Positions 16,884 to 35,577 of a stretch of DNA of 35,917 bases are shown piece by piece. The DNA lies in the NCBI RefSeq assembly GCF_013426975.1, contig NZ_JACCPY010000038.1:1-35917 (forward strand). The letters are read 5' to 3'. This DNA comes from Sphaerotilus sulfidivorans (GTDB lineage Bacteria > Pseudomonadota > Gammaproteobacteria > Burkholderiales > Burkholderiaceae_C). Below the pieces are notes generated by a model. That model was not told where the DNA came from and made no database searches. It saw only the letters and a list, made by a program, of their open reading frames with translations. The translations under genes and the position numbers were made by a program. Position 1 is the first letter of the stretch. The number at the start of each line of letters is the position of its first letter.

Positions 16884-17209
16884 CGAAGTCCTGTCACCAA
16901 CGGTCGGTCGGGCCGATCCGATGACCCGCGCCTCGCGCGCCCGCCCCGCGCAGTCGGCGCAAGGGCCTGGAACATGAGCCCGTTTCATGTGCCGATAAGA
17001 AAGTCTTTCCTGCCGCTTCTTGTGACCGTGTCTGGGCATATTTCACATTTTTCGGAGGCTGGCTCAGGCACTGATCTTGTGCCCTGCGCCGGGACATATT
17101 CCTAAGTGCTTCATCCACATGGTTTTTTTCAGTGCTGGCCCGATTCGTCGTCCAAAGGGTCATGGTCGCCTAAGTATTTGATTTCATTGGTGATTCACGC
17201 GTGGCTTCC
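16884..17209. other. Intergenic stretch without a recognisable gene
   Basis: These 326 bases separate the divergent FecR-like gene and dcw promoter and become clearly richer in A and T after about 16990. They contain a perfect inverted repeat, ACATGA-N7-TCATGT (16972-16990), which could be an operator for the minus-strand gene. Reading frames here resemble no family I know, and I find no RNA gene or terminator. Confidence 0.6.
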
Positions 17210-17239
17210 TTGACCCTCGCGCAATTTGTCCGCTACAGT
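17210..17239 (+). promoter_or_regulatory. Predicted promoter of the dcw cluster
   Basis: TTGACC (17210-17215) and TACAGT (17234-17239) form a sigma-70-type pair with an 18-base spacer. It is the best promoter upstream of rsmH and is immediately followed by the phased TGGGN-type repeats, the layout seen in front of mraZ-headed dcw clusters. Confidence 0.65.
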
Positions 17240-17273
17240 GGGCGACCGTGTCGTTTTGTGGGTTTTTGTGGTC
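17239..17273 (+). promoter_or_regulatory. MraZ-box-like operator: four 5-base units in 10-bp phase
   Basis: TGGGC (17239), TGTCG (17249), TGGGT (17259) and TGGTC (17269) each start exactly 10 bases apart; two are intact TGGGN units and two are degenerate. MraZ binds direct TGGGN repeats with 5-base spacers upstream of its own dcw operon in Escherichia coli. Position just downstream of the promoter and just before the mraZ remnant supports the assignment. Confidence 0.6.
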
Positions 17274-17279
17274 GACTTT

Positions 17280-17459
17280 CACTTCCAGAGGACTTCGGCG
17301 TCTGCGCCGGATGTCGCAGGGCGCCTGAGCGTTCCTGCGCGTTCTCGCGGCGGCCTGCCTGCCGGAAGCCCGATGCCGTTCATGCCGACCCGCCCTTCCG
17401 GGCATGACCTGCCGCTGCCGCCGTTGACGCTGTCGCGCCTGCAGGGCTCCCGCCTCTGA
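17280..17459 (+). pseudogene. mraZ: Degenerate remnant of mraZ
   Basis: In the frame ending at TGA 17457-17459, the codons from 17283 read FQRTSASAPDVAGRLSVPAR followed by SRGGL. Without gaps this matches the N-terminal pattern of beta-proteobacterial MraZ (FQG-SA-LDAKGR-LSVPAR-R-L), about 15 of 25 positions as I recall the family. A further ungapped stretch reaches a TR doublet where MraZ has T-K/R-H-P. The codon where ATG/GTG should stand is CAC (17280-17282), lysine of the DAKGR motif is lost, and the frame ends after about 60 codons instead of about 142. The second AbrB-like half is missing. MraZ represses the dcw operon in other bacteria; this copy cannot make it. Confidence 0.62.
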
Positions 17460-17471
17460 CCTCTCCCCCCC

Positions 17472-18464
17472 ATGGCCGTTCCTGCCGAAGCACCCATCCG
17501 GCAGCACATCACCGTGCTGCTCCACGAGGCGGTCGACGCGCTGCTGCATCGCCCCGACGGCACCTACATCGACGGCACCTTCGGCCGCGGTGGCCACTCG
17601 CGCCTGATCCTGTCGCGCCTGGCGCCGGGCGGGCGGCTGATGGCGATCGACCGCGACCCCGAGGCCGTCGCGCATGCCCGCGAGGGCGACACCCGCATCG
17701 ACGACACGCGCTTCTCGATCGACCACACCCGCTTCGCCGACTATCCCGAGGTGATGGCCGCGCACGGCGTGGCGCAGGTCGACGGCATCCTGCTCGACAT
17801 CGGCGTGTCCTCGCCGCAGATCGACGATCCGGCGCGGGGCTTCAGCTTCCGCCACGACGGGCCGCTCGACATGCGCATGGATCCGACGCGCGGCCAGAGC
17901 GCGGCCGAGTTCCTGGCCACCGCGCCCTTCGAGCGCATCGCCGAGGTGATCCGCGTCTACGGCGAGGAGCGCTTCGCCGGCCCGCTGGCGCGTGCGATCG
18001 TGGCGCGGCGCGAGGCCGGCCAGCCGCTGGCGCGCACCTCCGAGCTGGCCGCGCTGGCCGCCACCGTGGTGCGCACCCGCGAGCGCGGCCAGGACCCGGC
18101 CACCCGCACCTTCCAGGCGCTGCGCATCCTGGTCAACGGCGAGCTCGACGAGCTCGAGCAGGCGCTGGAGGCCTCGCTGGCGGCGCTGGCGCCGGGCGGG
18201 AGGCTGGCCATCATCAGCTTCCACTCGCTGGAAGACCGCATCGTCAAGAACTTCATCCAGCGCCATGCCCGCGAGGAGTTCGACCGGCGCGTGCCCTTCG
18301 CCACGCCGAAGCCGGCGCTGCTCGAGGAGGTCGCGCGCATCAAGCCCTCGGAGGCCGAGGTCGAGGCCAACGCACGCTCGCGCTCGGCGATCCTGCGGGT
18401 GGCGGCGCGCACCGATGCGGCGCTGCCGGCGGCGCCTGCGCCCTTCTCCCGGAGGCGGGCATGA
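17472..18464 (+). CDS. rsmH: 16S rRNA (cytosine-1402-N4)-methyltransferase RsmH
   Basis: RsmH methylates N4 of C1402 in the ribosomal P site using S-adenosylmethionine. The 330-residue product has [13 protein letters not shown] at about 12-24, the SAM-binding [14 protein letters not shown] at about 34-47, and the family signatures [18 protein letters not shown] and [14 protein letters not shown]. Start 17472 places HxxVLLHEAV at the usual distance from the N-terminus, although only CT-rich DNA and no Shine-Dalgarno sequence precedes it. It is the first intact gene of the dcw cluster; mraZ, its usual upstream neighbour, is decayed. Confidence 0.97.
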
Positions 18465-18751
18465 CCCGGCTGAACATCGTGCTGCTGCTGGCGGTCGTGG
18501 CCAGCGCGCTGTATCTGGTGCATGTGTCCTATGACTCGCGCCGCCAGTTCGTGCAGCTCGAGCGCGAGCGCAACGAGGCGCGCCGCCTCGAGCAGGAGGC
18601 CGAGCGGCTGCGCCTGCAGCTGCGCACCGAGGCCACCCATGTGCGCGTCGATCTGGCCGCGCGCGAGCGGCTGCACATGAGCGTGGCCACGCCGGCGGTG
18701 ACCCAGTATCTGGATGCGGTCCCGGCGCCTGCCCAGGAGGTCCGGCCGTGA
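18461..18751 (+). CDS. ftsL: Cell division protein FtsL
   Basis: FtsL is a small bitopic divisome protein that forms a complex with FtsB and FtsQ and activates FtsWI. The 96-residue product has a short cytoplasmic tail, one membrane helix (about 4-22) and a periplasmic leucine-zipper-like coiled coil (about 27-58, rich in E, R and L), ending in a conserved [12 protein letters not shown] region. Its ATG overlaps the rsmH stop by four bases and its own stop overlaps the ftsI start. Sequence identity in this family is low; position and topology carry the call. Confidence 0.92.
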
Positions 18752-20568
18752 GCGCCGGCTGGCTGGATCGGGCCCGCTCCCGGCTGGCGGCCCGGCTGGC
18801 GCCGGCGGCAGGCCAGAAGGGCGCGCCCGCCGGGGCGCGCTACGCCTCCAGCCCGCTGCTGACGGCCAAGACGCCGATCTGGCGCTCCCGGCTGGCGCTG
18901 GTGGTGGTCGGCCTGAGCTTCGCGCTGCTGCTGGGGCGCGCGATGTATGTGCAGGCGATCGACAAGGAGTTCTTCCAGGCCCAGGGCGAGATGCGCTACC
19001 AGCGCACCTTCGAGCTGCAGGCCAGCCGCGGCCGCATCACCGACCGCAACGGCGAGGTGCTGGCCGCCAGCGTGCCCGCGCCCTCGGTCTGGATGATCCC
19101 GAAGGATTTCCAGGCCACGCCGGAGCAGGTGGCCGAACTGACCCGCCTGCTGGGCATCACCCCGGTCGACCTGGCCGCGAAGGTGCGCGAGGGCGGCAAC
19201 TTCGTCTGGCTGCGCCGCCTGATCGACGAGACCACCGCCGCGCGCATCCGCGAGCTCAAGATCAAGGGCATCACCATCGAGCGCGAATACCGGCGCGAAT
19301 ACCCGGAGGGCGAGGCCGCGGCCCATGTGGTCGGCTTCACCAACCTGCAGGAAAAGGGCCAGGAAGGCGTCGAGCTGGCCTTCCAGAAGCAGCTCCAGGG
19401 CCACAACGGCAGCCGCAGCGTGGTGCGCGACCGCCTCGGCCGTGTGGTCGAGGACATCGGCGAGATCGTCGAGCCGGAGGACGGCAAGGACATCGCGCTG
19501 TCGATCGACAGCAAGGTGCAGTTCGTCGCCTACCAGCGCCTGCGCGAGGCGGTGGCGCAGCACGAGGCGCAGGCCGGCAGCGTGGTGGTGCTGGACGTGC
19601 GCACCGGCGAGGTGCTGGCGCTGGCCAACTATCCCTCCTACACGCCCGGCGACCGGCGCACCCGCACCGGCGCGAACCTGCGCAACCGTGCGCTGACCGA
19701 CACCTTCGAGCCGGGCTCGACGATGAAGCCCTTCATCGCCGCGCAGTCGATCCAGGCCGGCCGGGTGCGGCCGGAAACGGTGATCCAGACCGCACCGGGC
19801 AGCATCACCATCACCGGCTCGACGATCCGCGACTCGCATCCGCTCGGCGTGATGACGGTCGAGCAGATCATCCAGAAGTCCAGCAACGTCGGCACCGTCA
19901 AGATGGCGATGCAGATGCAGCCGCGCGAGATGTGGGAGCTGTACCGCTCGCTGGGCTTCGGCCAGAAGCCCGAGATGGAGTTTCCCGGTCTGGCCTCGGG
20001 CCGGCTGCGGCCCTACAAGAGCTGGCGCCCGATCGAGCAGGCGACGATGAGCTATGGCTACGGCCTGTCGGCCTCGCTGTTCCAGCTCGCCCAGGCCTAC
20101 ACCGTCTTCGCCCGCGACGGGCAGCTGGTGCCGGTCACGCTGCAGCGGCAGGACCGGCCGGTCGAGGGGCAGCAGGTCTTCCGGCCGGAGGTGGCCCGCG
20201 CGGTGCGCAAGATGCTCGGCATGGCCGCCGGCGAGGGCGGCACTGCGCCGAAGGCCCAGGCCCTGGGCTATTCGGTCGGCGGCAAGACCGGCACCGCGCG
20301 CAAGCAGGAGGGCAAGGGCTATGCCGGCAACAAGTACCGTTCCTGGTTCGTCGGCATGGCGCCGCTGGACCAGCCTCGGGTGGTCGTCGCGGTCATGATC
20401 GACGAGCCGGGCAAGGGCCAGTACTACGGCGGTCTGGTCGCGGCGCCGGTCTTCAGCCAGGTGGTGCAGCAGACGCTGCGGGTGCTGAGCGTGCCGCCCG
20501 ACCGCGAGGTGACGCCGCAGATCATCGCCCGGACGCAGGCGGCCCGGGCCGAGGAGGAATCGTTCTGA
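18748..20568 (+). CDS. ftsI: Penicillin-binding protein 3, division transpeptidase FtsI
   Basis: FtsI cross-links septal peptidoglycan in complex with FtsW. The 606-residue product starts at GTG 18748, overlapping ftsL by four bases. It has a basic cytoplasmic tail of about 47 residues, one membrane helix (about 48-66), a pedestal domain starting with SRGRITDRNGEVLA, and a transpeptidase domain with S324-T-M-K327, S378-S-N380 and K513-T-G515. MSYGYGLSASLFQLAQAYT is typical of the family. The final TGA shares its A with the murE ATG. Confidence 0.97.
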   Translation: MSAGWLDRARSRLAARLAPAAGQKGAPAGARYASSPLLTAKTPIWRSRLALVVVGLSFALLLGRAMYVQAIDKEFFQAQGEMRYQRTFELQASRGRITDRNGEVLAASVPAPSVWMIPKDFQATPEQVAELTRLLGITPVDLAAKVREGGNFVWLRRLIDETTAARIRELKIKGITIEREYRREYPEGEAAAHVVGFTNLQEKGQEGVELAFQKQLQGHNGSRSVVRDRLGRVVEDIGEIVEPEDGKDIALSIDSKVQFVAYQRLREAVAQHEAQAGSVVVLDVRTGEVLALANYPSYTPGDRRTRTGANLRNRALTDTFEPGSTMKPFIAAQSIQAGRVRPETVIQTAPGSITITGSTIRDSHPLGVMTVEQIIQKSSNVGTVKMAMQMQPREMWELYRSLGFGQKPEMEFPGLASGRLRPYKSWRPIEQATMSYGYGLSASLFQLAQAYTVFARDGQLVPVTLQRQDRPVEGQQVFRPEVARAVRKMLGMAAGEGGTAPKAQALGYSVGGKTGTARKQEGKGYAGNKYRSWFVGMAPLDQPRVVVAVMIDEPGKGQYYGGLVAAPVFSQVVQQTLRVLSVPPDREVTPQIIARTQAARAEEESF

Positions 20569-22124
20569 TGGGATCGACGCAACCGACCCGTGTGACCCTG
20601 TTCCGGGATGTCGACGAGACGCTGGCCTGGCTGCGCCGTGTCGCGCCGCAGGCGGTGCTGCGCACCGACAGCCGCCAGGTGCTGTCGGGCGATGTCTTCA
20701 TCGCCTGGCCGGGGCTGGCGCAGGATGGCCGCCGTCATGTGCCCGCCGCGCTGGCTGCCGGCGCGGCCGCCTGTCTGGTCGAGGCCGACGGCATCGAGGC
20801 CTTCGACTTCGGCGCGGATGCGCGCATCGCCGCGCTGCCGGCGCTGAAGGCCAGCACCGCGCCGCTGGCCGCGGCCTGGCACGGGCATCCGAGCCGTCTG
20901 CTCGATGTGGTGGCCACCACCGGCACCAATGGCAAGACCTCCACCGCCTGGTGGCTGGCGCAGGCGCTCAGTCTGGCCGGTCGGCGCTGCGGCGTCGTCG
21001 GCACGCTGGGCGTGGGCGAGCCGCCCAGCCGCGTCGCGCCCGAGGCCCGGGTGATCTCGACCGGCCTGACCACGCCCGATCCGGTCACGCTGCAGCGCGC
21101 GCTGCGCGACTTCGCCGCCCGGGGCTTCGCGGCCTGCGCGATGGAGGCCTCGTCGATCGGCGTGACCGAGCACCGGCTCGACGCGATGAAGATCGATGTC
21201 GCGCTGTTCACCAACTTCACGCCCGATCACCTCGACTACCACGGCAGCATGGCCGCCTACTGGCAGGCCAAGCGGGCGCTGTTCGACTGGCCGGGCCTGC
21301 GCGCGGCGGTCATCAACATCGACGATCCGCAGGGCGCCATCCTGGCCGACGAGCTGCAGGCCGAGGGCCGGCTCGAGGTCTGGACCTGCTCGACCCGGCC
21401 TTCGGCCCGGCCGGCACGGCTGCAGGCCGGCGACCTGCGCTACGACGGCGCCGGCCTGTGCCTGCTGCTGACCGAAGAGGCGGGCGCGCCGGTGGCGGTG
21501 CGCACCGGGCTGATCGGCGACTACAACGCCGCCAATGTCGTCGGCGTGATCGGCGTGCTGCGTGCGCTGGGCCTGCCGCTGGCGCAGGTGGCGGCGCTGG
21601 CGGCCGACTTCACCCCGGTGCCGGGGCGGATGCAGCGGGTCGAGCCACCGGCCGGTGCCACGGACCTGCCGCAGGTGGTGGTCGACTACGCGCACACGCC
21701 GGATGCGCTGGAGAAGGCGCTGCAGGCGCTGCGCCCGTTTGCGCAGGCGCGCGGCGGCCGGCTGTGGTGCGTCTTCGGCTGCGGCGGCAACCGCGATGCC
21801 ACCAAGCGGCCGGTCATGGGCCGCATCGCCCAGGCGCTGGCCGACGAGGTGGTGCTCACCAGCGACAATCCGCGCCATGAGTCGCCCGCGGCGATCCTGC
21901 GCGACATCCAGGCCGGCTGCACGCCCGCGCCCACGCTGGCCTGCCTCGAGGACCGGGCCGCGGCGATCGCCACCGTGCTGCATGACGCCGACGCGGCCGA
22001 TGTGGTGCTGATCGCCGGCAAGGGCCATGAGGACTATCAGGAGACGGCGGGCGTCCGGCATCATTTTTCAGATCTGGAGCAGGCCGAGGCCGCGCTACAA
22101 CGACGCACCTCCACCGCGGCCTGA
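20568..22124 (+). CDS. murE: UDP-MurNAc-L-Ala-D-Glu:meso-diaminopimelate ligase MurE
   Basis: MurE adds the third stem-peptide residue in the cytoplasm using ATP. The 518-residue product has the P-loop TGTNGKTS (about 118-125), K235 in YWQAKRALF as the likely carbamylated lysine, and DNPR (433-436), the motif that selects meso-diaminopimelate over lysine. This fits a Gram-negative cell wall. The ATG at 20568 overlaps the ftsI stop by one base, and a GAGGAGGAAT ribosome site lies about 10 bases upstream. The frame is open further upstream, but that part only mirrors ftsI. Confidence 0.97.
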   Translation: MGSTQPTRVTLFRDVDETLAWLRRVAPQAVLRTDSRQVLSGDVFIAWPGLAQDGRRHVPAALAAGAAACLVEADGIEAFDFGADARIAALPALKASTAPLAAAWHGHPSRLLDVVATTGTNGKTSTAWWLAQALSLAGRRCGVVGTLGVGEPPSRVAPEARVISTGLTTPDPVTLQRALRDFAARGFAACAMEASSIGVTEHRLDAMKIDVALFTNFTPDHLDYHGSMAAYWQAKRALFDWPGLRAAVINIDDPQGAILADELQAEGRLEVWTCSTRPSARPARLQAGDLRYDGAGLCLLLTEEAGAPVAVRTGLIGDYNAANVVGVIGVLRALGLPLAQVAALAADFTPVPGRMQRVEPPAGATDLPQVVVDYAHTPDALEKALQALRPFAQARGGRLWCVFGCGGNRDATKRPVMGRIAQALADEVVLTSDNPRHESPAAILRDIQAGCTPAPTLACLEDRAAAIATVLHDADAADVVLIAGKGHEDYQETAGVRHHFSDLEQAEAALQRRTSTAA

Positions 22125-22141
22125 CCGCCTTTCCCCTCACG

Positions 22142-23602
22142 ATGACTTCCGACGACTTCATGACCCTGGGCGAGGCGCACGCGCTGCTGGCCGCGCGCCT
22201 GCCGTCCGTGCGCCTGATCGGCGATCCGGGCCGGGCCTTCGCCCGGGTCCACACCGACACCCGCACGCTGCGCGAGGGCGACCTGTTCGTCGCGCTGCGC
22301 GGCGAGCGCTTCGACGCCAACGACTTCCTGGCGCAGGCCCGCGAGGCGGGCGCCTGCGCGGCGCTGGCCGAGCGCGGCCTGGCCGAGGCCGGTCTGCCGG
22401 GGCTGGAGGTGCCCGACGCGCTGGCGGCGCTGCAGGCGCTGGCCGAGGGCTGGCGCGCCACGCTGGACCTGCCGGTGATCGGCGTGACCGGCAGCAACGG
22501 CAAGACGACGGTCACGCAGATGATCGCGTCGATCCTGCGCGCGGCCGCGGGCGACGCGGCGCATGCCACCGCCGGCAACCTCAACAACCACATCGGCGTG
22601 CCGCTGACGGTGCTGGGGCTGCGCCGCCACCACCGGCTGGCGGTGATCGAGCTGGGCATGAACCACCCCGGCGAGATCGCCGAGCTGGCGCGCATCGCGC
22701 AGCCGACGGTGGTGCTGGTCAACAACGCCCAGCGCGAGCACCAGGAATTCATGAAGACGGTCGAGGCGGTCGCGCGCGAGAACGGCGCGGCGATCGCCGC
22801 GCTGCCGGCCGGCGGCACCGCGGTCTTTCCCGAGGGCGACGCCTATGCCGCGCTGTGGCGCGGACTGGCCGGCGCGCGCCCGGTGCGCACCTTCGCGCTG
22901 GACGATCCGGCGGCCGACCTGCGCGCCCAAGCCGTCTGGGCGGGCGACCACTGGACGGCCACGCTGCACACGCCCGCGGGCGATGCGACGCTGGCGCTGC
23001 AGGTGGCCGGGCGCCACAACCTGCTCAATGCGCTGGCCGCGGCCGGCTGCGCGCTGGCTGCCGGCGTGCCGCTGGCGGCGGTGCGCGACGGTCTGGCGGC
23101 CTTCCGGCCGGTGCGCGGCCGCTCGGCGGTCGAGCAGCGCGCCTGGCGCGGCCACACGATCACGCTGATCGACGACAGCTACAACGCCAATCCCGACTCG
23201 GTGCGCGCGGCCATCGACGTGCTGGCGGCGCTGCCCGGCCCGCGCTGGCTGGTGCTGGGCGACATGGGCGAGGTCGGCGACGACGGCCCGGCCTTCCATG
23301 CCGAGGTCGGCGCCCATGCCGCGGCCAGCGGCATCGAGCTGTTCTGGAGCGCAGGCATACTCGCGGCCCACGCCGCGCAGGCCGCGACGTCGGCCGGCGC
23401 CGGCACCGCGGTGCGCCACGAGGCCGACGCCGCGGCGCTGGTCGCGGCGATGCGCTCGGACGCGGGTCGGGCGGCGCTGGGCGAGGTGCGCTCGGTGCTC
23501 GTCAAGGGCTCGCGCTTCATGAAGATGGAACAGGTGGTCGCGGCGATCCGCGAAGAGGGCGACCTCGGATCGGCCGCGCCAGGAGAACGACATGCTCATT
23601 AG
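22142..23602 (+). CDS. murF: UDP-MurNAc-tripeptide:D-Ala-D-Ala ligase MurF
   Basis: MurF completes the UDP-MurNAc-pentapeptide by adding D-Ala-D-Ala made by Ddl. The 486-residue product shows the three Mur-ligase domains: an N-terminal substrate domain with [20 protein letters not shown] (about 39-58), the ATPase core with P-loop [10 protein letters not shown] (about 114-123) and [11 protein letters not shown], and a C-terminal domain with [17 protein letters not shown]. It starts 17 bases after murE and overlaps mraY by 11 bases. Confidence 0.97.
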
Positions 23603-24773
23603 CCTCGCACAGTGGTTGCAAGGCCTGTATCCGGACACGCTGGGCTTCCTGCGCGTGTTCCAGTACATCACCTTCCGTGCGGTGATGGCCGCGATGACCG
23701 CGCTGCTGCTCGGTCTGGCCTTCGGCCCGTGGGTCATCCGGCGCCTGACCGAGCTGAAGATCGGCCAGCCGGTGCGCGAATACGGCGTTCAGGCGCACCT
23801 GGTCAAGCGCGGCACGCCGACGATGGGCGGCGTGCTGGTGCTGCTGTCGATTGCGGTCTCGACGCTGCTGTGGTTCGACTGGAGCAACCGCTTCGTCTGG
23901 ATCGTGATGGTGGTGACCTTCGGCTACGGCGCGATCGGCTGGGTCGACGACTGGCGCAAGGTCGTCCAGAAGAATCCCGAGGGCATGCCCTCGGGCGAGA
24001 AGTACCTGTGGCAGTCGCTGATCGGCATCCTGGCGGCGCTCTACCTGGCCTTCAGCGTCTCGGAGACCTCCAACCTGCGCGTGCTCGAGCTGTTCTTCGA
24101 CTGGGTGATGTCGGGCTTCTCGAACAGCCTGCCGCCGAAGGCCGACCTGATCGTGCCCTTCTTCAAGTCGGTCAGCTATCCGCTGGGCGTGTTCGGCTTC
24201 ATCATCATGACCTACCTGGTCATCGTGGGTTTCAGCAACGCGGTCAACCTGACCGACGGGCTGGACGGCCTGGCGATCATGCCGGTGGTGCTGGTGGGCG
24301 CGTCGCTGGGCCTGTTCGCCTATGCGACCGGCAACGCGGTCTATTCGAAGTACCTGTTCCTGCCGCACATTCCCGGCGCGGGCGAGCTGGCGATCTTCTG
24401 CGCCGCGATGGCCGGCGCGGGCCTGGCCTTCCTGTGGTTCAACGCGCATCCGGCGCAGGTCTTCATGGGCGATGTCGGCGCGCTGGCGCTGGGCGGCGCG
24501 CTGGGCACCATCGCGGTGATCGTGCGCCAGGAGATCGTGCTGGCGATCATGGGCGGCATCTTCGTCGTCGAGGCGCTGTCGGTCATGGTCCAGGTCGGCT
24601 GGTTCAAGTACACCAAGAAGAAGTACGGCCAGGGCCGGCGCATCCTGCTGATGGCGCCGCTGCACCACCACTTCGAGAAGAAGGGCTGGGTCGAGACGCA
24701 GGTGGTGATCCGCTTCTGGATCATCACGATGCTGCTGTGCCTGGTCGGTCTGTCGACGATGAAGCTGCGCTGA
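23592..24773 (+). CDS. mraY: Phospho-MurNAc-pentapeptide transferase MraY
   Basis: MraY is the integral membrane enzyme that transfers phospho-MurNAc-pentapeptide to undecaprenyl phosphate, making lipid I. The 393-residue product has about ten hydrophobic helices and the family signatures KRGTPTMGG, the aspartate-rich [18 protein letters not shown] and [25 protein letters not shown] ribosome site lies within the end of murF, just before ATG 23592. The length is slightly above the E. coli enzyme, with a longer loop around residues 120-190 as in other beta-proteobacteria. Confidence 0.97.
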
Positions 24774-24774
24774 C

Positions 24775-26364
24775 ATGGAAGCACTCAAGGACACCGCCCT
24801 GCTGATCCTGGGCCTGGGCGATTCGGGCCTGGCGATGGCGCGCTGGGCGCGGCGCTGCGGCGCCGCACGCATCGTCGTGGCGGACACCCGCGCCGCGCCG
24901 CCGCAGGCCGGCGCGCTCGAGCGCGAGGTGCCCGGCGCCGAGCTGCGCTGCGGCGCGCCCGATCCGGCGCTGCTCGACGGCGTGAAGGCGGTCTTCAAGA
25001 GCCCCGGTCTGGCGCCGAACGACCCGGTGCTGCGCCCGCTGCTCGACGAGGCCGCCCGGCGCGGCCTGCCGGTGGGCGGCGAGCTCACGCTGTTCGCCTG
25101 GGCGCTGCGCGACCTGCAGCGCGCACAGGGCTACGCGCCCAGGGTGCTGGCGATCACCGGGACCAACGGCAAGACGACCACCACCTCGCTGACCGCGCAG
25201 CTGTGCGAGCGCGCCGGCCTGCGCGTCGGCCTGGCCGGCAACATCGGCCCGACGCTGCTGGGCACGCTGGGCGAGGCGCTGGACCGCCACGCCGCCGCGC
25301 CCGACGAGGCGGCCGCAGGCCTGCCCGAGGTTTGGGTGCTCGAGCTCTCGAGCTTCCAGCTCGACGGCGTGACCGACTTCGAGCCGACCGCCGCCACCGT
25401 GCTCAACATCACCCAGGACCACCTCGACTGGCACGGCTCGATGGCCGCCTATGCCGAGGCGAAGGCGCGCATCTTCGGCCGCCGTGGCGTGAGGGTGCTG
25501 AACCGCGACGACGCGATGGTCGAGGCGATGGCGCCGGCCGAGGCCGCCGCGGCCCGTCCCGCTCGCGGCCGGGCGCCGTCCTCGCCGGAGGAGGCCGTGC
25601 CCGAGGTGGTGCGCTTCGGGCTGGACGCGCCGCGCCGCCCGGGCGACTGGGGCCTGGTGGTCGAGAACGGCATGGCCTGGCTGGTGCGCGCACAGGCGGC
25701 CGAGGACGAGCTGCCGCGCGGTCGCCGTGGCGGTGCAGGTGCCGGCGCGGTGCCGGTGCTGCTGCAGCGCCTGATGCCGGCCGACGCGCTGCGCATCCGC
25801 GGCCGCCACAACGCCGCCAACGCGCTGGCCGCGCTCGCGCTGGCCAGCGCCGCCGGCGTGCCGCTGGCGCCGATGCTGCACGGCCTGCGCGAGTACCGCG
25901 GCGAGCCGCACCGGGTCGAGTTCATCCGCACGATCGACGGCATCGATGCCTACGACGACAGCAAGGGCACCAATGTCGGCGCCACCGTCGCGGCGCTGAC
26001 CGGCCTGGGCGCCGACCGGCTGCCCGGACGGCTGGCGCTGATCCTGGGTGGCGACGGCAAGGGCCAGGACTTCGGGCCGCTGGCCGCGCCGGTGGCCGCA
26101 CACGCACGCTCGGTCGCGCTGATCGGCCGCGACGCCGGCGCGATCGCCGCGGCGATCGCCGATGTGGCGCTGCCTGTCGAGCGCTTCGACACGCTGGAGG
26201 CGGCGGTGCGCTGGAGCTTCGCGCAGGCGCGCTCGGGCGATGCGGTGCTGCTGAGCCCGGCCTGCGCCAGCCTCGACATGTTCCGCAACTACGCCCACCG
26301 CGCCGAGGTCTTCGTCGCCGAGGTCGAGGCGATCGCGCAGGAGCGCGGGGAGTTCGGGTCGTGA
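24775..26364 (+). CDS. murD: UDP-MurNAc-L-alanine:D-glutamate ligase MurD
   Basis: MurD adds D-glutamate to UDP-MurNAc-L-Ala. The 529-residue product has an N-terminal Rossmann domain ([15 protein letters not shown]), the P-loop [12 protein letters not shown] (about 127-138), LELSSFQLD and [16 protein letters not shown] in the ATPase core, and [12 protein letters not shown] plus [17 protein letters not shown] in the C-terminal domain. It is longer than the usual 440-500 because of two low-complexity Ala/Arg/Pro/Gly-rich inserts at about 251-275 and 305-326. It starts one base after the mraY stop, and its own stop overlaps the GTG of ftsW. Confidence 0.96.
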
Positions 26365-27611
26365 GCGCCGCACCGGGAGGATTCGGCGGCCTGTGGCAGC
26401 GCCTGCGCGGCCGCACCGCAGCCGGCGAGGTGCCGGTGCGCAGCTGGAACAGCCTGTCCTCGGGCATGCCACCGCGCTGGGTCGGCTTCGACGAGACGCT
26501 GGCCTGGGTGATCGCCGGGCTGATCTCGCTCGGGCTGGTGATGGTCTATTCGGCCTCGATCCAGCTGCCCGACAGCCCGAAGTACAGCAACTATGTCCCG
26601 ACCCATTTCATGTCGCGCCATGTGCTGTCGGTGGGGCTGGCGGTGATCGCCGCCTGCGTGACGCTGGCCATCCCGATGCGGACCTGGGAGAAGATGGCGC
26701 CGTGGCTGTTCGTGCTGGCGCTGCTGCTGCTGATCCTGGTGCTGATTCCCGGCATCGGCAAGGTGGTCAACCGCTCGCGGCGCTGGATTCCGCTGGGCGT
26801 CATGAACTTCCAGCCCAGCGAGCTGGCCAAGCTGGCGATGGCCATGTATGCCGCCAGCTACATGATGCGCAAGATGGACGTGAAGGAGAGCTTCACCCGC
26901 GCGGTGCTGCCGATGGCCATCGCGCTGGGCGTGGTGGGCCTGCTGCTGCTGGCCGAGCCCGACATGGGTGCCTTCATGGTGATCGCGATCATCTCGATGG
27001 GCATCCTGTTCCTGGGCGGCGTCAACGGCCGGGTGTTCGCGATCATGATCGGCGTGCTGATCTCGGCCCTGGTGCTGGTGATCACCGTCTCGCCCGAGAA
27101 GCGCGGGCGCATCTTCGCCTTCCTCGATCCCTGGGCCAAGGACAATGCCGACAACAAGGCCTATCAGCTGACGCACTCGCTGATCGCCTTCGGCCGCGGC
27201 GAGTACTTCGGCCAGGGCCTGGGCCAGTCGCTCGAGAAGCTGCACTACCTGCCCGAGGCGCACACCGACTTCCTGCTGGCCATCATCGGCGAGGAGCTCG
27301 GTCTGGTCGGCGTGGGCATCGTCATCGTCGCCTTCTTCTGGATGGTGCGGCGCATCTTCGTGATCGGCCGCCAGGCGGTGGCGCTCGACCGGGTGTTCTC
27401 GGGCCTGACCGCCCAGGGCATCGGCCTGTGGATGGGCGGGCAGACCTTCATCAACATGGGCGTCAACCTGGGCGTGCTGCCCACCAAGGGCCTGACGCTG
27501 CCGCTGATGAGCTACGGCGGATCGGCGATCATCATGACCTGCGTGGCCCTGGCGGTGGTGCTGCGCATCGACATGGAAAACCGCCAGATCCTGAGAGGAG
27601 GGCGCCCATGA
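26361..27611 (+). CDS. ftsW: Division-specific peptidoglycan polymerase FtsW (SEDS family)
   Basis: FtsW polymerises lipid II at the septum together with FtsI. The 416-residue product starts at GTG 26361, inside the murD stop (GTGA). A cytoplasmic N-terminal extension of about 48 residues leads to ten or so membrane helices. Signatures are [52 protein letters not shown] and [23 protein letters not shown]. Being next to murG in the dcw cluster identifies it as FtsW and not RodA. The end overlaps murG by four bases. Confidence 0.96.
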
Positions 27612-28735
27612 GCGCGTCGGCACAGCGTCATCTGGTCATCATGGCTGCCGGCACCGGCGGCCACATCATGCCGGGCCTGGCGGTGGCGCGCGAGATGATG
27701 CGCCGCGGCTGGACCGTCAGCTGGCTGGGCACGCCGAAGGGCATGGAGAACCGCCTGGTGCCGCCGACCGGCATCCCGATGGACACCATCGGCTTCGCCG
27801 GCCTGCGCGGCAAGGGCGCGCTCGGGCTGCTGCGCGGCGGGCTGCAGCTCGCGCGCGCGCTGGCGCAGTGCCTGGGCATCCTGCGCCGTCGCTCGACGAC
27901 GGCGGTGCTGGGCATGGGCGGCTATGTCTGCTTTCCCGGCGGCCTGATCGCCCGGCTGCTGGGGCGGCCGCTGATGCTGGTCAATGCGGATGCGGGTCTG
28001 CTGCTGTCGAACCGCTCGCTGCTGCGCTTCGCCGACCGGGTGGCCTTCGGCTTCGACGGCGAGGCCGCACGTGGCGTGGCCCAGGGCATCGTCACCGGCA
28101 ATCCGGTGCGTGCCGAGATCGAGGCGATCGCACCGCCCGAGCAGCGCTTTGCCGGCCGCGCCGGCCCGTTGCGGGTGCTGGTGGTCGGCGGCAGCCTGGG
28201 CGCGCAGGTGCTCAACGAGACGCTGCCGCGCGCGCTGGCACGGCTGCTGCCGGCCGAACGCCCGGTCGTCACCCACCAGACCGGCGTGGCCCATCTCGAG
28301 ACGGTGCGCGCGGCCTATGCGCAGGCCGGGCTCGACCCGTCGGCGGCCGGGCTGGAGGTGCTGCCCTTCATCGAGGACATGCCGCGCCGCCTGGCCGAGT
28401 GCGACCTGATCGTCTGCCGCGCCGGCGCGGTGACGGTCAGCGAGCTGTGCGCCGCCGGCGTGCCCAGCGTGCTGGTGCCGCTGATCGTCAGCACCACCGC
28501 CCACCAGCGCGACAATGCGATCTGGATGGACCGGCAGAAGGCGGCCATTCATCTGCCGCAGGCCGAGCTCTCGCCCGAATCGCTGGCCGAGCTGCTGCGC
28601 CGGCTCGACCGCACCCGGCTGCTGCAGATGGCGCAGCGCGCACGCACGCTGGCGCAGCCGCGTGCGGCTCAGCGTGTCGCCGACGAGATCGAGCACCTCA
28701 CGAATCCCCTGATGACGACCCTCAAGCAAGCATGA
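27608..28735 (+). CDS. murG: Lipid II synthase MurG (GlcNAc transferase), divergent motif variant
   Basis: MurG transfers GlcNAc from UDP-GlcNAc to lipid I on the inner membrane face. The 375-residue GT-B protein has the N-terminal loop [15 protein letters not shown] (about 13-27), [32 protein letters not shown] and the donor-site [11 protein letters not shown] with E279. Two motifs differ from most MurG: HEQN is replaced by VNAD (about 125-128), and the DDHQ loop reads TTAHQ (296-300). I recall similar sequences in Leptothrix-like relatives, so this is probably a lineage variant and not damage. A GAGAGGAGG ribosome site precedes ATG 27608. Confidence 0.94.
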
Positions 28736-30153
28736 AGCACGCCGTCAAGCACATCCACTTCGTCGGTGTCGGCGGCGCCGGCATGAGCGGCATCGCCGAG
28801 ATCCTGCACAACCTCGGCTACACCGTCTCCGGCTCCGACCAGGCCGACGGCGCGGTGACCCGCCGGCTGGCCGAGCTGGGCATCCGCATCCACATCGGCC
28901 ATGACGCTGCGCACATCGAGGGCGCCGAGGCGGTGGTCACCTCGACCGCGGTGAAAGGCGACAACCCCGAGGTGATCGCCGCGCGCTCGCGCCGCATCCC
29001 GATCGTGCCGCGCGCGGTGATGCTGGCCGAGCTGATGCGCCTGAAGAAGGGCATCGCGATCGCCGGCACGCATGGCAAGACGACCACCACCTCGCTGGTG
29101 ACCAGCGTGCTGGCCGAGGCTGGCGTCGATCCCACCTTCGTCATCGGCGGCAAGCTCAACTCGGCGGGCGCCAACTCGGCGCTGGGCTCGGGCGAGTACA
29201 TCGTCGTCGAGGCCGACGAGTCCGACGCCTCCTTCCTGAACCTGCTGCCGGTGCTGTCGGTCGTCACCAACATCGACGCCGACCACATGGACACCTACGG
29301 CCACGACTTCGCGCGGCTGAAGGCGGCCTTCGTCGATTTCCTGCACAAGATGCCGTTCTACGGCTCGGCGGTGCTGTGCACCGACGATCCCGGCGTGCGC
29401 TCGATCCTGCCGATGATCTCGCGCCCGGTCATCAGCTACGGCCTGGGCGAGGACGTGCAGGTGCGCGCAGTCGACGTGCAGGCACTGCCCGGCGGCCAGA
29501 TGCGCTTCACCTGCCAGCGCCGCAACGGCGTGACGCTGCCCGACCTGCAGATCACGCTGAACCTGCCCGGCGAGCACAATGTGCGCAACGCGCTGGCGGC
29601 CATCGCCATCGCCACCGAGCTGGAGCTGCCGGACGCGCCGATCGTCGCCGCGCTGGCGAAGTTCGGCGGCGTGGGCCGGCGCTTCCAGCGCTGGGGCGAC
29701 CACCCGGCGCGCGACGGCGGCCAGTTCACGCTGATCGACGACTACGGCCACCACCCGGTCGAGATGGCCGCGGTGATCGCCGCCGCGCGCGGCGCCTTTC
29801 CCGGCCAGCGCCTGGTGCTGGCCTTCCAGCCGCACCGCTACACCCGCACCCGCGACTGCTTCGAGGACTTCGTCAAGGTGCTGGGCAGCGCCGACGCGGT
29901 GCTGCTGACCGAGGTCTACGCCGCCGGCGAGGCGCCGATCGTCGCCGCCGACGGCCGTGCCATGACCCGCGCGCTGCGGGTGGCCGGCCGGGTCGACCCG
30001 GTCTTCGTCGACGACATCGCCGAGCTGCCGCAGGTGATCCTGGAGCAGGCGCGCGCGGGCGACGTCGTCATCGCGATGGGCGCGGGCTCCATCGGCGGCG
30101 TGCCCGCCAAGGTGATCGAGCGGCTGAACGATCTGCTGAAGGAGCGTGCGTGA
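28732..30153 (+). CDS. murC: UDP-MurNAc:L-alanine ligase MurC
   Basis: MurC adds the first amino acid, L-alanine, to UDP-MurNAc. The 473-residue product has the N-terminal [17 protein letters not shown] loop, the P-loop [11 protein letters not shown] (about 111-121), [34 protein letters not shown] and the C-terminal [10 protein letters not shown] and FQPHRYTRT motifs. All family landmarks are present. Its ATG overlaps the murG stop by four bases, and its last base is shared with the ddlB ATG. Confidence 0.97.
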
Positions 30154-31157
30154 TGAGTGCCCAGAGTTCCCAGGAGCCCGCAGTGAATGTCGATCCCCGC
30201 GCGCTGGGCAAGGTGGCGGTGCTGATGGGCGGCACCTCCGCCGAGCGCGAGATCTCGCTGATGAGCGGCTCGGGCGTGCTGGCGGCGCTGCGCTCGCGCG
30301 GCGTCGACGCGCATGCCTTCGATCCGGCCGAGCGCGACCTGCACGAGCTGCGCGAGCAGGGTTTCGACCGCGCCTTCATCGCGCTGCACGGCCGCCACGG
30401 CGAGGACGGCTGCGTGCAGGGCGCACTCGAGATGATGGGCATCGCCTACACCGGCTCCGGCGTGATGGCCTCGGCGATCGCGATGGACAAGGTGATGACC
30501 AAGCGCGTCTGGATCGCCGAAGGGCTGCCGACGCCGGCGCATGTGCGCCTGGCGCCCGAGGAGCAGTCGCCCGAGGCCGTCGCCGCGCTGCCGGCGCGCC
30601 TGGGTCTGCCGCTGATCGTCAAGCCGCCGCGCGAGGGCTCGTCGATCGGCGTGACCAAGGTGCTTGAGGCGGCGCAGGTCGCCGCGGCGGTCCAGGAGTC
30701 GCTGCGCCATGATCCGGACGTGCTGGCCGAGGCCTTCATCGCCGGCGACGAGATCACCTGCCCGGTGCTGGGTGAGGGCGAGAGCGCGCATGCGCTGCCG
30801 GTCATCCGCATCGTGCCGCCCGAGGCCGGCTACGACTACCAGAACAAGTACTTCACCGACGAGGTGCGCTACCTCTGCCCGAGCGGCCTGCCCGAGCATG
30901 AGGAGCGCGAGATCCAGCGAATCGTCGTGGCCGCCTACAAGGCGCTGGGTTGCCGCGGCTGGGGCCGCGCCGACCTGATGATCCGCGCCAGCGACCGCCA
31001 GGCCTTCCTGCTCGAGATGAACACCTCGCCGGGCATGACCGGCCACTCGCTGGTGCCGATGTCGGCCCGCGCGGCCGGCGTCAGCTACGAGGACCTGTGC
31101 CTGCGGCTGCTGGCGGCCGCGCGCCTGGATGCGGTCCCGGCCGCGCCCCGCGAGTGA
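30153..31157 (+). CDS. ddlB: D-alanine:D-alanine ligase DdlB
   Basis: Ddl joins two D-alanines with ATP to supply MurF. The 334-residue ATP-grasp protein has [17 protein letters not shown] (about 23-39), [18 protein letters not shown], the ATP-binding [14 protein letters not shown], and the metal-binding [18 protein letters not shown] near the C-terminus. The ATG at 30153 shares one base with the murC stop; a GTG just upstream is a less likely start. Its TGA overlaps a possible GTG start of ftsQ. Confidence 0.97.
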
Positions 31158-31177
31158 AGGCGAACGCAGGCGCTGGC

Positions 31178-31990
31178 ATGACGACGCGCGACCGCTCCGC
31201 CCCGTCCGATCCGGTCACGCTGCCGCTCGACGTGCAGCTGATGCGCTCGGGCTCGTCGGTGCTGGTCTGGCTGCTGGTGCTGGGGCTGCTGCTGGTCGGC
31301 GGACACTGGCTGGTCCATTCGCCCTGGTTCGCGCTCCGGCAGGTCCATGTCGAGGGCGAGGTCGAGCACAGCACCACCGACTCGATCCGGCGCCATGCGC
31401 TGCCCCGGCTGGAAGGCAACTACCTGACGCTGGATCTGGTCGAGGCGCGAGCCGCCTTCGAGGCGATCCCGTGGGTGCGGCGCGCCGAGGTGCGCCGCGT
31501 CTGGCCGCATGACCTGATCGTGCGCCTGGAGGAGCACCAGCCGGTCGCCTACTGGGAGCGCGAGGCGCGCGAGCCCTTGCTGGTCAACAGCTTCGGCGAG
31601 GTCTTCGAGGTCAACCTCGGCGATGTCGAGGACGAGACGCTGCCGACGCTGCGCGGGCCGCGCGACACCTCCGCTCAGGTCCTGGCGATGTGGAAGCGGC
31701 TGGTGCCGGTCTTCGCCTCGATGCGCAGCCGGGTGGACCGGCTGGAGCTGTCGGACCGCGGATCGTGGCGTGCCCATCTCGACCGGGGCGCGGTCATCGA
31801 GCTGGGGCGGGGGGATGCCGACGAGATCGTCGATCGCACCCGGCGCTTCGTGGCCAGCGTCGGCCAGGTGTCGCGCCGCTTCGAGAACCGCGCCATCGAG
31901 TATGCCGATCTGCGGCATGTCGAGGGCTATGCGCTGAAGCTGGCCGGCATGGGCACCACCGCCCATCCGGTGCCGGCCAGGAAGCACTGA
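31178..31990 (+). CDS. ftsQ: Cell division protein FtsQ
   Basis: FtsQ is a bitopic protein that brings FtsB and FtsL into the divisome. The 270-residue form has a cytoplasmic tail, one membrane helix (VWLLVLGLLLVGGHWLV, about 31-47), a POTRA domain starting WFALRQVHVEG and including PWVRRAEVRRVWPHDLIVRLEEHQPVA, and a C-terminal beta domain with YADLRHVEGYALKL. The start is ambiguous. ATG 31178 has a modest AGG site; GTG 31154 overlaps the ddlB stop by four bases and adds eight residues, matching the overlap style of this operon. Confidence 0.93.
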   Translation: MTTRDRSAPSDPVTLPLDVQLMRSGSSVLVWLLVLGLLLVGGHWLVHSPWFALRQVHVEGEVEHSTTDSIRRHALPRLEGNYLTLDLVEARAAFEAIPWVRRAEVRRVWPHDLIVRLEEHQPVAYWEREAREPLLVNSFGEVFEVNLGDVEDETLPTLRGPRDTSAQVLAMWKRLVPVFASMRSRVDRLELSDRGSWRAHLDRGAVIELGRGDADEIVDRTRRFVASVGQVSRRFENRAIEYADLRHVEGYALKLAGMGTTAHPVPARKH

Positions 31991-32015
31991 GCACGCTCGC
32001 GAGAAAGACGCAGCC

Positions 32016-33257
32016 ATGTCCAAGGAATACAACGAACTCGTCGTCGCGCTCGACATCGGGACCGCCAAGGTGATGGCGGTGGTGGCCGAGCTGCTGCCGG
32101 ACGGCGAGCTGCGTCTGGCCGGGCTGGGCGTGGCGCCCTCGCTCGGACTCAAGCGCGGCAGCGTCGTCAACATCGACGCGACGATGCACTCGATTCAGCA
32201 GGCGCTGAAAGAAGCCGAGATGATGGCCGACTGCAAGATCGGCCGGGTCCATGTCGGCATTTCCGGCAGCCATGTGCGCGGGCGCAACTCCACCGGCATG
32301 GTCATCGTGCGCGACCAGGAGGTCACGCCCTTCGACGTGTCGCGGGTGGTGGAGACCGCCAAGGCGATCAACATTCCCAACGACCAGCGCCTGCTGCTGG
32401 TCGAGCCGCAGGAATTCGTCATCGACGGCCAGGAGGTGCGCGAGCCGGTCGGCATGAGCGGCGCGCGGCTCGAGGTCAGGGTGCATATCGTGACCGGCTC
32501 GCACAGCGCGGCCGAGAACATCGTCAAGTGCGTGCGGCGCTGCGGGCTGGAGGTCGAGCAGCTGGTGCTCAACCCGAGCGCCTCCAGCCTGTCGGTGCTG
32601 ACGCCAGATGAAAAAGCGCTCGGCGTGGCGCTGGTCGACATCGGTGCCGGCACCACCGATGTGGCGATTTTCACGGATGGCGCGATCCGTCATACTGCCG
32701 TGATTCCGATTGCGGGGGATCTGATCACCAGCGACATCGCGATGGCGCTGCGCACGCCGACGAAGGATGCCGAGGAGATCAAGATCGAGTACGGGGTGGC
32801 CAAGCAGCTGCTGGCCGATCCGGCCGAGCAGCTCGAGGTGCCCGGACTTGGTGACCGGGTTCCGAAGATCTTGAGCCGCCAGGCCCTGGCGGGCGTGATC
32901 GAACCCCGAGTAGAAGAGATATTTGCGCTTGTCCAGCAGGTGATCCGGGAAAGTGGCCATGAGGAACTTCTCTCATCGGGCATTGTCCTGACCGGGGGAT
33001 CGGCTGTGATGCCGGGTATGGTCGAACTGGCCGAGGACATCTTCCTCAAGCCGGTGCGCAAGGGGGTTCCGACCTATGGCGGGGCCCTCTACGACATGGT
33101 GGCGAGCCCCCGCTCGGCGACCGCGATGGGTCTGCTGGAGGAGGCGCGCCTGGCAAGAGTGCGCGGCATGCGATCGGCGCCGAGCGGTGCAGCATCCCCG
33201 GGAGTGGCCCAGGGACTGTTCGTCCGGGCCAGGGATTGGTTCCTGAAAAGTTTCTGA
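32016..33257 (+). CDS. ftsA: Cell division protein FtsA
   Basis: FtsA is the actin-like protein that tethers FtsZ to the membrane and recruits later divisome proteins. The 413-residue product has phosphate-1 VVALDIGTAKVMAVVAE, the FtsA-specific 1C domain (about 85-165), phosphate-2 LVDIGAGTTDVAIF, and the adenosine motif VLTGGSAVMPGM. The C-terminal GLFVRARDWFLKSF is the amphipathic membrane-targeting helix. A short A/T-richer patch near 32890-32930 uses codons unusual for this DNA (GTA, GAA, ATA) and may contain a promoter for ftsZ. Confidence 0.97.
   Translation: MSKEYNELVVALDIGTAKVMAVVAELLPDGELRLAGLGVAPSLGLKRGSVVNIDATMHSIQQALKEAEMMADCKIGRVHVGISGSHVRGRNSTGMVIVRDQEVTPFDVSRVVETAKAINIPNDQRLLLVEPQEFVIDGQEVREPVGMSGARLEVRVHIVTGSHSAAENIVKCVRRCGLEVEQLVLNPSASSLSVLTPDEKALGVALVDIGAGTTDVAIFTDGAIRHTAVIPIAGDLITSDIAMALRTPTKDAEEIKIEYGVAKQLLADPAEQLEVPGLGDRVPKILSRQALAGVIEPRVEEIFALVQQVIRESGHEELLSSGIVLTGGSAVMPGMVELAEDIFLKPVRKGVPTYGGALYDMVASPRSATAMGLLEEARLARVRGMRSAPSGAASPGVAQGLFVRARDWFLKSF
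32895..32923 (+). promoter_or_regulatory. Candidate internal promoter for ftsZ within ftsA
   Basis: GTGATC (32895-32900) and GATATT (32918-32923) are 17 bases apart and fall in a pocket of rare A/T-rich codons, including an ATA isoleucine codon. In E. coli several ftsZ promoters lie inside ftsA. The matches to consensus are only partial (3/6 and 4/6), so this is tentative. Confidence 0.25.
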
Positions 33258-33289
33258 TGTAATTCAGACGCAGACACAAGGAGAGCGGC

Positions 33290-34510
33290 ATGGGTATCGA
33301 GATGATCGAAGAGTTCAATCAGGGCACGCAGATCAAGGTGATCGGCGTGGGTGGCGGCGGCGGCAATGCGGTCGACCACATGATCAACCGCGGCGTGCAG
33401 GGCGTGGAGTTCATCTGCGCCAACACCGACGCACAGGCACTGAACCGTTCCAAGGCGCACACGTTGCTGCAGCTCGGCCATACCGGCCTGGGCGCGGGCT
33501 CGCGTCCGGAGGCCGGCAAGGCCTCGGCCGAAGAGGCGGTCGACCGCATCAAGGCGGCGCTGGAAGGCGCCCACATGGTCTTCATCACCGCCGGCATGGG
33601 CGGTGGCACCGGTACCGGTGCGGCTCCGGTCATCGCTCGCCTGGCCAAGGACATGGGCATCCTGACCGTCGGCGTGGTCACCAAGCCCTTCGAGTTCGAG
33701 GGCCCGCGCCGCATGAAGCAGGCCGACACCGGGCTCAACGAGCTCGAGGCCAATGTCGACTCGCTGATCGTCGTGCTCAACGAGAAGCTGCTCGAGGTCC
33801 TCGGTGACGACATCACCCAGGAAGAGGCCTTTGCCGAAGCCAACGACGTGCTGCGCAATGCCGTCGGCGGCATCAGCGACATCATCCACATTCCCGGCCT
33901 GGTCAACGTCGACTTCGAGGACGTCAAGACCGTCATGAGCGAGCCGGGCAAGGCGATGATGGGCACCGCCACCTCCAGCGGCCCGGATCGCGCCAAGAAG
34001 GCGGCCGAGGCTGCGGTGGCCTGCCCGCTGCTCGAGGGCGTCGACCTGTCCGGCGCGCGCGGCGTGCTGGTGCTGATCGCCGCGAGCAAGCAGAACTTCA
34101 AGCTGTCCGAGAGCCGCAACGCGATGCAGACGATCCGTCGCTACGCTGCGGAAGAGGCCCACGTGATCTACGGTACCGCCTACGACGAGAGCCTGGGCGA
34201 CGCGCTGCGGGTGACCGTCATCGCGACCGGCCTGTCTTCTGGCGCCAAGGTCCAGCCGGTGGCGCCGCAGCAGCGTGTGGTCCAGGTGGTGCCGCCCGCA
34301 GTAGGGCAACGCACCGGCACCGACAACATCCCGGTCCTGACGCATCCGCTGGTCGACCAGCAGCGCGGCGGCGGCGCCTCGGTCGGCTCGTCCTCGCCGA
34401 GCGTGTGGCGTCCCAACCGCACCCAGGCGGCCGCCCGGGTCGACGCGATGGCCTCGAAGGGCATGGACGAGATCGAGATCCCGGCCTTCCTGCGCAAGCA
34501 GGCGGACTGA
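33290..34510 (+). CDS. ftsZ: Cell division GTPase FtsZ
   Basis: FtsZ is the tubulin homologue that forms the Z-ring. The 406-residue product has the nucleotide-binding VIGVGGGGGNAVDHMI (about 17-32), the tubulin signature GGGTGTG (about 104-110), the T7-loop region NVDFEDVKTVMSEPGKAMMG, a variable linker of about 60 residues, and the conserved C-terminal peptide IEIPAFLRKQAD that binds FtsA and other partners. An AAGGAGAGCGGC ribosome site precedes ATG 33290, stronger than those of most genes in this cluster. It is the last gene of the dcw transcript; a terminator follows after 54 bases. Confidence 0.98.
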   Translation: MGIEMIEEFNQGTQIKVIGVGGGGGNAVDHMINRGVQGVEFICANTDAQALNRSKAHTLLQLGHTGLGAGSRPEAGKASAEEAVDRIKAALEGAHMVFITAGMGGGTGTGAAPVIARLAKDMGILTVGVVTKPFEFEGPRRMKQADTGLNELEANVDSLIVVLNEKLLEVLGDDITQEEAFAEANDVLRNAVGGISDIIHIPGLVNVDFEDVKTVMSEPGKAMMGTATSSGPDRAKKAAEAAVACPLLEGVDLSGARGVLVLIAASKQNFKLSESRNAMQTIRRYAAEEAHVIYGTAYDESLGDALRVTVIATGLSSGAKVQPVAPQQRVVQVVPPAVGQRTGTDNIPVLTHPLVDQQRGGGASVGSSSPSVWRPNRTQAAARVDAMASKGMDEIEIPAFLRKQAD

Positions 34511-34564
34511 CGCCCGCGCTCCCCCCGCCTTTCTCCCGTTCCCTGTCCTTGCTGCTTCCTGTTT

Positions 34565-34590
34565 GCCCGGTGTCCTCGCGGACACCGGGC
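34565..34590 (+). terminator. Intrinsic terminator after ftsZ
   Basis: GCCCGGTGTCC (34565-34575) pairs perfectly with GGACACCGGGC (34580-34590) around the 4-base loop TCGC. This 11-bp GC-rich stem is followed by the T-rich CTTGTCGTTTG. It is the clearest terminator in the window and separates the dcw transcript from lpxC. Confidence 0.88.
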
Positions 34591-34629
34591 CTTGTCGTTT
34601 GCGCAACGTTCGCGCGACGTCATGCTGCC

Positions 34630-34641
34630 TAGAATGCGGTC
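34630..34641 (+). promoter_or_regulatory. lpxC promoter -10 box, probably giving a leaderless mRNA
   Basis: TAGAAT at 34630-34635 is a good extended -10 element, only six bases before the lpxC ATG at 34642. Transcription should therefore begin at or next to the start codon. No Shine-Dalgarno sequence is present. The -35 region (around 34607-34612) is poor. Confidence 0.55.
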
Positions 34642-35577
34642 ATGCTGCTCCAACGCACCCTCAAGTCGCTGACCCGCGCCGTCGGTGTCGGCCTGCACAG
34701 CGGCCAGAAGGTCGAGCTCGTGCTGCGCCCGGCCGCGCCGGACACCGGCCTGGTCTTTCATCGCATCGACCTGCCCACGCCGGTCGACATTCCGGTCACG
34801 CCGCAGTCGGTCTGCGACACCCGCATGGCGACGACGATCTCGCCCGGCGGCGATCCCGGCGCGCCGAAGGTGCAGACCATCGAGCATCTGCTGTCGGCGG
34901 TCGCCGGTCTCGGCATCGACAACCTGCACATCGACATCACCGCCGACGAGGTGCCGATCCTCGACGGCTCCTCGGCCAGCTTCGTCTTCCTGCTGCAGAG
35001 CGCCGGCATCGCGCTGCAGCAGGCGCCCAAGCGCTTCATCCGGGTGCGCAAGCCGGTGGAGATCCGCGAAGGCGAGGGCCGCACGCTGAAGTGGGCCCGG
35101 CTCGCGCCCTATCACGGCTATCGGCTCGGCTTCGAGATCGAGTTCGGCCATCCGGCGGTCGACGCCACCGGGCAGCGTGTCGTCTTCGACTTCGCCTCGG
35201 GCCGCTACAAGCAGGACATCGCGCGCGCGCGCACCTTCGGCTTCACGAAGGATGTCGAGATGATGCGCTCGCGCGGCCTCAGCCTGGGCGGCAGCATGGA
35301 CAACGCGATCGTCGTCGACGACTACCGCGTGCTCAATGCCGAGGGGCTCCGCTACGACGACGAGTTCGTCAAGCACAAGATCCTCGACGCGATCGGCGAC
35401 CTGCATGTCTGCGGCCGGCCGCTGCTGGCCGACTACACCGCCTACAAGAGCGGTCATGCGCTCAACAACCGGCTGCTGCGCGCGCTCCTGGCCGACGAGT
35501 CGGCCTGGGAGATCGTGACCTTCCAGGACGAGCGTCTGGCGCCGCGTGGCCTGGCCGATCTGGCTTCGGCCTGGTGA
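34642..35577 (+). CDS. lpxC: UDP-3-O-acyl-N-acetylglucosamine deacetylase LpxC
   Basis: LpxC is the zinc-dependent deacetylase that commits UDP-acyl-GlcNAc to lipid A synthesis. The 311-residue product starts [21 protein letters not shown]. Zinc ligands are H82 (TIEHLLSAV), H245 and D249 ([15 protein letters not shown]), with H272 (KSGHALNN) as the catalytic base region; the [14 protein letters not shown] motif is intact. Start 34642 is the only start compatible with the conserved N-terminus. It follows ftsZ in the usual order but has its own promoter after the ftsZ terminator. Confidence 0.97.

Follow-up and report, generated by a model that had tools for sequence, protein, structure and literature searches.

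The locus at the head of the dcw cluster of Sphaerotilus sulfidivorans raises the question of what has become of mraZ, the gene of a nearly universal bacterial cell-division regulator and, in most bacteria, the first gene of the division cluster, and whether its remains still serve a purpose. The stretch analysed here, hereafter the window, comprises 35,917 nucleotides of contig NZ_JACCPY010000038.1 (assembly GCF_013426975.1), and all features described lie on its forward strand. The first intact gene of the cluster is rsmH (17472..18464), an open reading frame with relatives in all 13 genomes of the genus sample, the window's own included. The rest of the dcw cluster follows at 18461..35577 as open frames in one orientation, which we take to be ftsL to lpxC. 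We put a probability of roughly 55% on the reading that MraZ function is gone at this locus and that a stub of the gene remains as a leader whose translation feeds rsmH.

The mraZ remnant occupies 17268..17459. It forms a frame of 63 codons plus stop that runs from a GTG at 17268 to a TGA at 17459 and ends 12 nt before the rsmH ATG at 17472; an alternative in-frame start is the TTG at 17256. Alignment to congeners places this TGA at the normal mraZ stop, showing that the loss was internal and in frame, with the middle deleted and both the GTG start and the TGA stop retained. An earlier note on this DNA had described a frame of about 60 codons; that frame is real, but the note had misread the ends, taking the start codon to be replaced by CAC when the frame in fact starts four codons upstream of that triplet. 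CAT or CAC was found at the position equivalent to 17280 in 11 of the 13 genomes, including the window and all eight genomes with a whole mraZ, and is deleted in the other two (G004 and G005). In those eight congeners the GTG start lies in the same place as in the window and the frame continues Phe-His-Phe-Gln, so that CAC at 17280 encodes the histidine usual for the genus and is no destroyed start; a lost start codon was rejected, as CAT/CAC at that spot is common to congeners. In one genome, G009, an in-frame TAG just upstream makes the mraZ GTG the first possible start.

Pfam and NCBIfam profile scans of the three frames of the stub region returned 0 families, and the cut-off for MraZ (TIGR00242 / PF02381) was not reached, an outcome that the earlier note had set against an mraZ origin. 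The homology is nevertheless settled, since relatives have mraZ at the same position. The sequence found there in close relatives that keep the gene is homologous, not unrelated; the stub aligns to whole and half mraZ genes lying between the same promoter and rsmH, and its alignment score against any of seven congeners was reached by 0 of 5000 shuffles. The stub descends from the mraZ at the head of the dcw cluster. The notion that it is not mraZ at all and merely an open frame arisen by chance, which the empty profile scans might favor, is already refuted by these congeners and retains practically no credibility. A profile search of the window's genome gave no match over the cut-off for a second mraZ, in line with the loss that had been claimed, and the same search gave none elsewhere in G010, G004 and G005; relocation of mraZ was rejected for all four genomes on these grounds.

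A whole mraZ of 146 codons is present in eight of the 13 genomes (G001, G002, G003, G007, G008, G009, G011 and G012). In G006 the gene has 105 codons, with the DAKGR motif intact and without 41 codons containing the second conserved motif. The sister genome G010 carries the same stub as the window, 60 codons long, the difference being one 9-nt indel. All that is left in G004 and G005 is the promoter, a portion of the operator and some six codons of the C-terminus, with no stop. Thus mraZ is lost or shortened in five of the 13 genomes, cases that are related rather than independent, and two of these calls are to be taken with caution owing to incomplete assemblies (G006, 68%; G005, 83%). The whole copies in the genus, the intermediate in G006 and the stub shared with G010 bear out the earlier note on two points, namely that a decayed fragment of mraZ stands at the front of a dcw cluster that is complete in all other respects, and that the loss is recent enough to have left a scar. 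A contig artefact was rejected for the stub, which in G010 lies inside a 133-kb contig, and for the deletion in G004 and G005, both of which carry it inside contigs (23 and 42 kb).

A tree built from rsmH and ftsI gave the topology (((window,G010)100,G006)100,G001)100 and grouped G004 and G005 with G008 (the nucleotide tree joins G004 to G005 at 74%, the protein tree G004 to G008 at 62%). This places the window, G010 and G006 apart from G004 and G005, indicating at least two separate losses of mraZ. The pairing of the window with G010 is clear, the FtsI identity to the window being 97% for G010 as compared with 83% and 80% for others. Among the window, G001 and G006, dS was 0.08-0.09 for rsmH versus 0.26-0.31 for ftsI, and identity along the dcw cluster was mosaic when the window was set against G001 and G006. 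From these sequence comparisons, rsmH may have recombined between lineages, and the rsmH+ftsI tree could be affected.

We considered whether the stub could be a working mini-MraZ, a small protein that consists of part of the first domain and is able, even now, to bind the retained operator or some other partner. The whole operator (see below) and the retained GRLSVPAR are compatible with such a protein, as is the retention of 17 of 22 residues invariant in eight intact MraZ sequences in alignment columns 1-30. However, only 3 of 10 such residues survive in columns 31-52 and 3 of 50 in the later columns, and no profile matches. The DAKGR core reads DVAGR, the lysine being gone as the earlier note had reported, and with the second half deleted the stub does not possess the two AbrB-like halves of MraZ. 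The substitution pattern also speaks against a functional protein. Between the window and G010, 52 codons of the stub carried 11 nonsynonymous and 5 synonymous substitutions (dS 0.122, dN 0.106, omega 0.87), as compared with ftsI (dS 0.122, omega 0.12) and rsmH (dS 0.111, omega 0.23). The N:S ratio of the stub differed from that of ftsI (p = 0.003) and of rsmH (p = 0.048) and did not differ from neutrality (p = 0.79), as is seen in a neutral pseudogene with an unconstrained amino-acid sequence. On the stem branch, 28 of 156 sites changed, with 7, 14 and 7 changes at the successive codon positions. A mini-MraZ therefore appears quite improbable.

The region upstream of the stub has fared differently from the stub protein. 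The presumed -35 box TTGACC (17210..17215) and, 18 bp after it, the presumed -10 box TACAGT (17234..17239) match the consensus and are found in all 13 genus loci. The presumed MraZ operator (17238..17277) has the layout of an MraZ-type operator, with four GTG repeats that begin exactly every 10 bp (17238, 17248, 17258 and 17268), and the first of them overlaps the -10 box. The fourth repeat (17268-17270) is at the same time the mraZ start codon, likewise in 10 other genus loci, so that operator and start are unable to vary independently. The exact operator pattern occurs once per genome in 11 of the 13 genomes, and a reversed control gave 0. In G004 it has 2 mismatches with the fourth repeat gone, and in G005 the pattern is absent with the third and fourth repeats gone, so that erosion of the operator goes with near-complete deletion of the gene and is not seen in the window. 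Positions 17201-17300, which include promoter, operator and start, are identical in the window and G010, and the 37 positions 17234-17270 are identical in the window and G001, a genome with a whole mraZ, as against 2 differences in G006 and 6 in G008. The chance of these identities at neutral rates is about 1e-5 (17201-17300) and 2e-5 (17234-17270), figures to be read with the caveat that promoters are constrained in any case.

Binding of MraZ at the window operator may be inferred by analogy. The site proposed for MraZ in B. cenocepacia lies below the -10 box in a fragment bound by MraZ and comprises four repeats of 7 nt separated by 3-nt spacers (PMC7761207). The window operator resembles this MraZ-controlled dcw promoter in its GTG-core repeats, its 10-bp steps and its place downstream of the -10 box; it differs in that the regulator gene is a stub and the fourth repeat of the presumed operator is the start codon. 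All 13 genus loci also share a conserved element, AAGTNNTTGATTTCATTGG (17172..17190), ahead of the dcw promoter. The distance from the start of AAGTNNTTGATTTCATTGG to the -35 box is 38 bp in 11 of the 13, 39 bp in G001 and 49 bp in G004, where the shift of +11 is about one helical turn. A scan of 52 loci, with the promoter wrongly assigned in G030 and G085, located the element 37-39 bp before the -35 box in other genera as well (G025, G019, G017 and G188, with a looser match in the last two), and it is retained in mraZ-less genomes.

At rsmH, a Shine-Dalgarno sequence was absent in all 10 usable genus members, a count that leaves out G008, G003 and G006, where the automatic rsmH start is wrong (an upstream in-frame ATG). 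The outgroups G025, G019 and G017 gave dG values of -5.2 to -5.6 at rsmH. Within the window, ftsL and ftsI have strong Shine-Dalgarno sequences, and murF and murD likewise have none, indicating that the absence is not special to rsmH. The lack of a Shine-Dalgarno sequence at rsmH, together with the short stop-to-start distance and the in-frame deletions, suggests that ribosomes still traverse the stub.

We propose that MraZ function was lost on the common branch of the window's species and G010, where an in-frame deletion took away the second half, including the second conserved motif, and the DAKGR core was lost from the first half that remained. The ladder from the whole gene through 105 to 63/60 codons supports this loss, the tree nodes there standing at 100%, as do the homology and position of the stub and the neutral-looking drift of its amino-acid sequence behind an unchanged promoter and operator. 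The dcw operon would then run without MraZ control. The stub would still be translated because passing ribosomes keep transcription of the GC-rich leader from terminating early and, on leaving the stub, hand over to rsmH, whose start without a Shine-Dalgarno sequence lies just past the stub stop; the stub peptide would be a by-product. Bacterial operons are known to contain short coupled leader frames, with a stop within a few bases of a next start that has no Shine-Dalgarno sequence. The stub is like these in being short and in ending near such a start, and unlike them in that the leader is a former regulator gene and the coupling is a presumed one. We also suggest, tentatively and with more doubt than belief, that the regulator gene has given up its protein while its reading frame is under selection for being translated, since translation of the stub would protect the leader and supply rsmH with ribosomes. 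On this view the orphan operator would be retained to serve the promoter or a new reader, and a lost mraZ must either stay open or shrink to a very short leader.

The alternative that survives best is a plain pseudogene, its frame unselected and open since the DNA is GC-rich and the loss fairly recent, and its promoter and operator kept only as the promoter of an essential cluster. The neutral-looking omega of the stub agrees with it, and ordinary decay is exemplified by G651, a genome of another family with a weak match, whose mraZ is a pseudogene broken, as judged by eye, by stops and frame changes; the frame therefore need not stay open, which counts against the leader reading. In a neutral simulation, the frame stayed open in both tips in only 14% of runs at a stem length of 0.15, 8% at 0.25, 5% at 0.35 and 3% at 0.5, before any indel penalty. 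These low frequencies favor the leader reading, though retention in 3-14% of runs is also compatible with a pseudogene. Against it are the in-frame indels in the window/G010 stub, in G006 and in the family member G218: if the two indels fell in frame by luck, the simulated chance drops to about a ninth, ~0.3-1.6%, in a post hoc simulation whose rates were assumed and whose ancestor was a stand-in.

A frame bridging to rsmH was found in seven of nine leaders in the family in which mraZ is missing or shortened (the window, G010, G074, G188, G373, G351 and G218); the other two, G004 and G005, have 70-nt leaders and manage without one, which also weighs against the leader reading. Shuffled leaders, moreover, often bridge by chance: the frequency was 0.66 for G074, 0.64 for G188, 0.41 for G351 and 0.31 for G373, and fell below 0.3 only for the window (0.096), G010 (0.094) and G218 (0.022). 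The value for the window is one that a pseudogene could show, and we give the pseudogene a substantial chance, short of even. The evidence for selection on the stub frame is suggestive and short of proof, and tips the balance slightly in its favor. Under the leader reading, this may be a case of a dead gene's reading frame kept for the sake of its neighbours.

Loss of mraZ is in itself already known from the multicellular, longitudinally dividing (MuLDi) Neisseriaceae; in N. elongata, deleting mraZ reduced the transcripts of five dcw genes downstream of it and caused no significant morphological defect (PMC9395523). Like the window, the MuLDi Neisseriaceae are a betaproteobacterial lineage without mraZ in which dcw genes are present. 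In MuLDi the loss coincides with a change of division mode and other gene losses (PMC9395523), whereas in the window's genus whole and lost mraZ coexist in a graded series and the operator is kept. A literature search of titles found none on mraZ loss in Sphaerotilus, Leptothrix or Burkholderiales. Members of the Sphaerotilus-Leptothrix group are described as growing as chains of cells in sheaths (PMC13386937), and if the whole-mraZ congeners belong to this group, loss of mraZ would be unnecessary for the sheathed-chain habit. A genus whose members carry a whole, a half, a stub or an almost deleted mraZ under one and the same promoter amounts to a natural experiment: close relatives that have MraZ and those that do not can be compared for dcw expression and cell length.

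The frequency of mraZ loss was surveyed in 398 genomes of the family, at least 95% complete and scored by a TIGR00242 match, of which 393 had a match; the five without were the window, G074, G188, G351 and G373, a far lower share than the five of 13 with a lost or shortened gene in the window's genus. Across the order, 292 of 299 had an mraZ match, and the seven without include the window. Two of these misses are cut contigs and not losses, as G539 starts in an apparent mraZ end and G543 inside rsmH, and in G447, G485, G492 and G552 no mraZ was recognisable by eye in the ~420 bases before rsmH. We also observed in G218 (L179), an unrelated member of the family, an mraZ upstream of rsmH that is likewise shortened in frame; much like G006, it retains DAKGR, the C-terminal tail and the four GTG repeats and has lost the second motif. 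In G373 (L178), a frame with the MraZ traces VFQG and GAKGRL lies just upstream of rsmH, its stop overlapping the rsmH start codon. One further family member, G029 (one contig, 94% complete), matched neither mraZ nor rsmH, and G017 carries, besides its dcw copy, a second, distant RsmH-like match with 40% identity (G017:C13:79530-80450).
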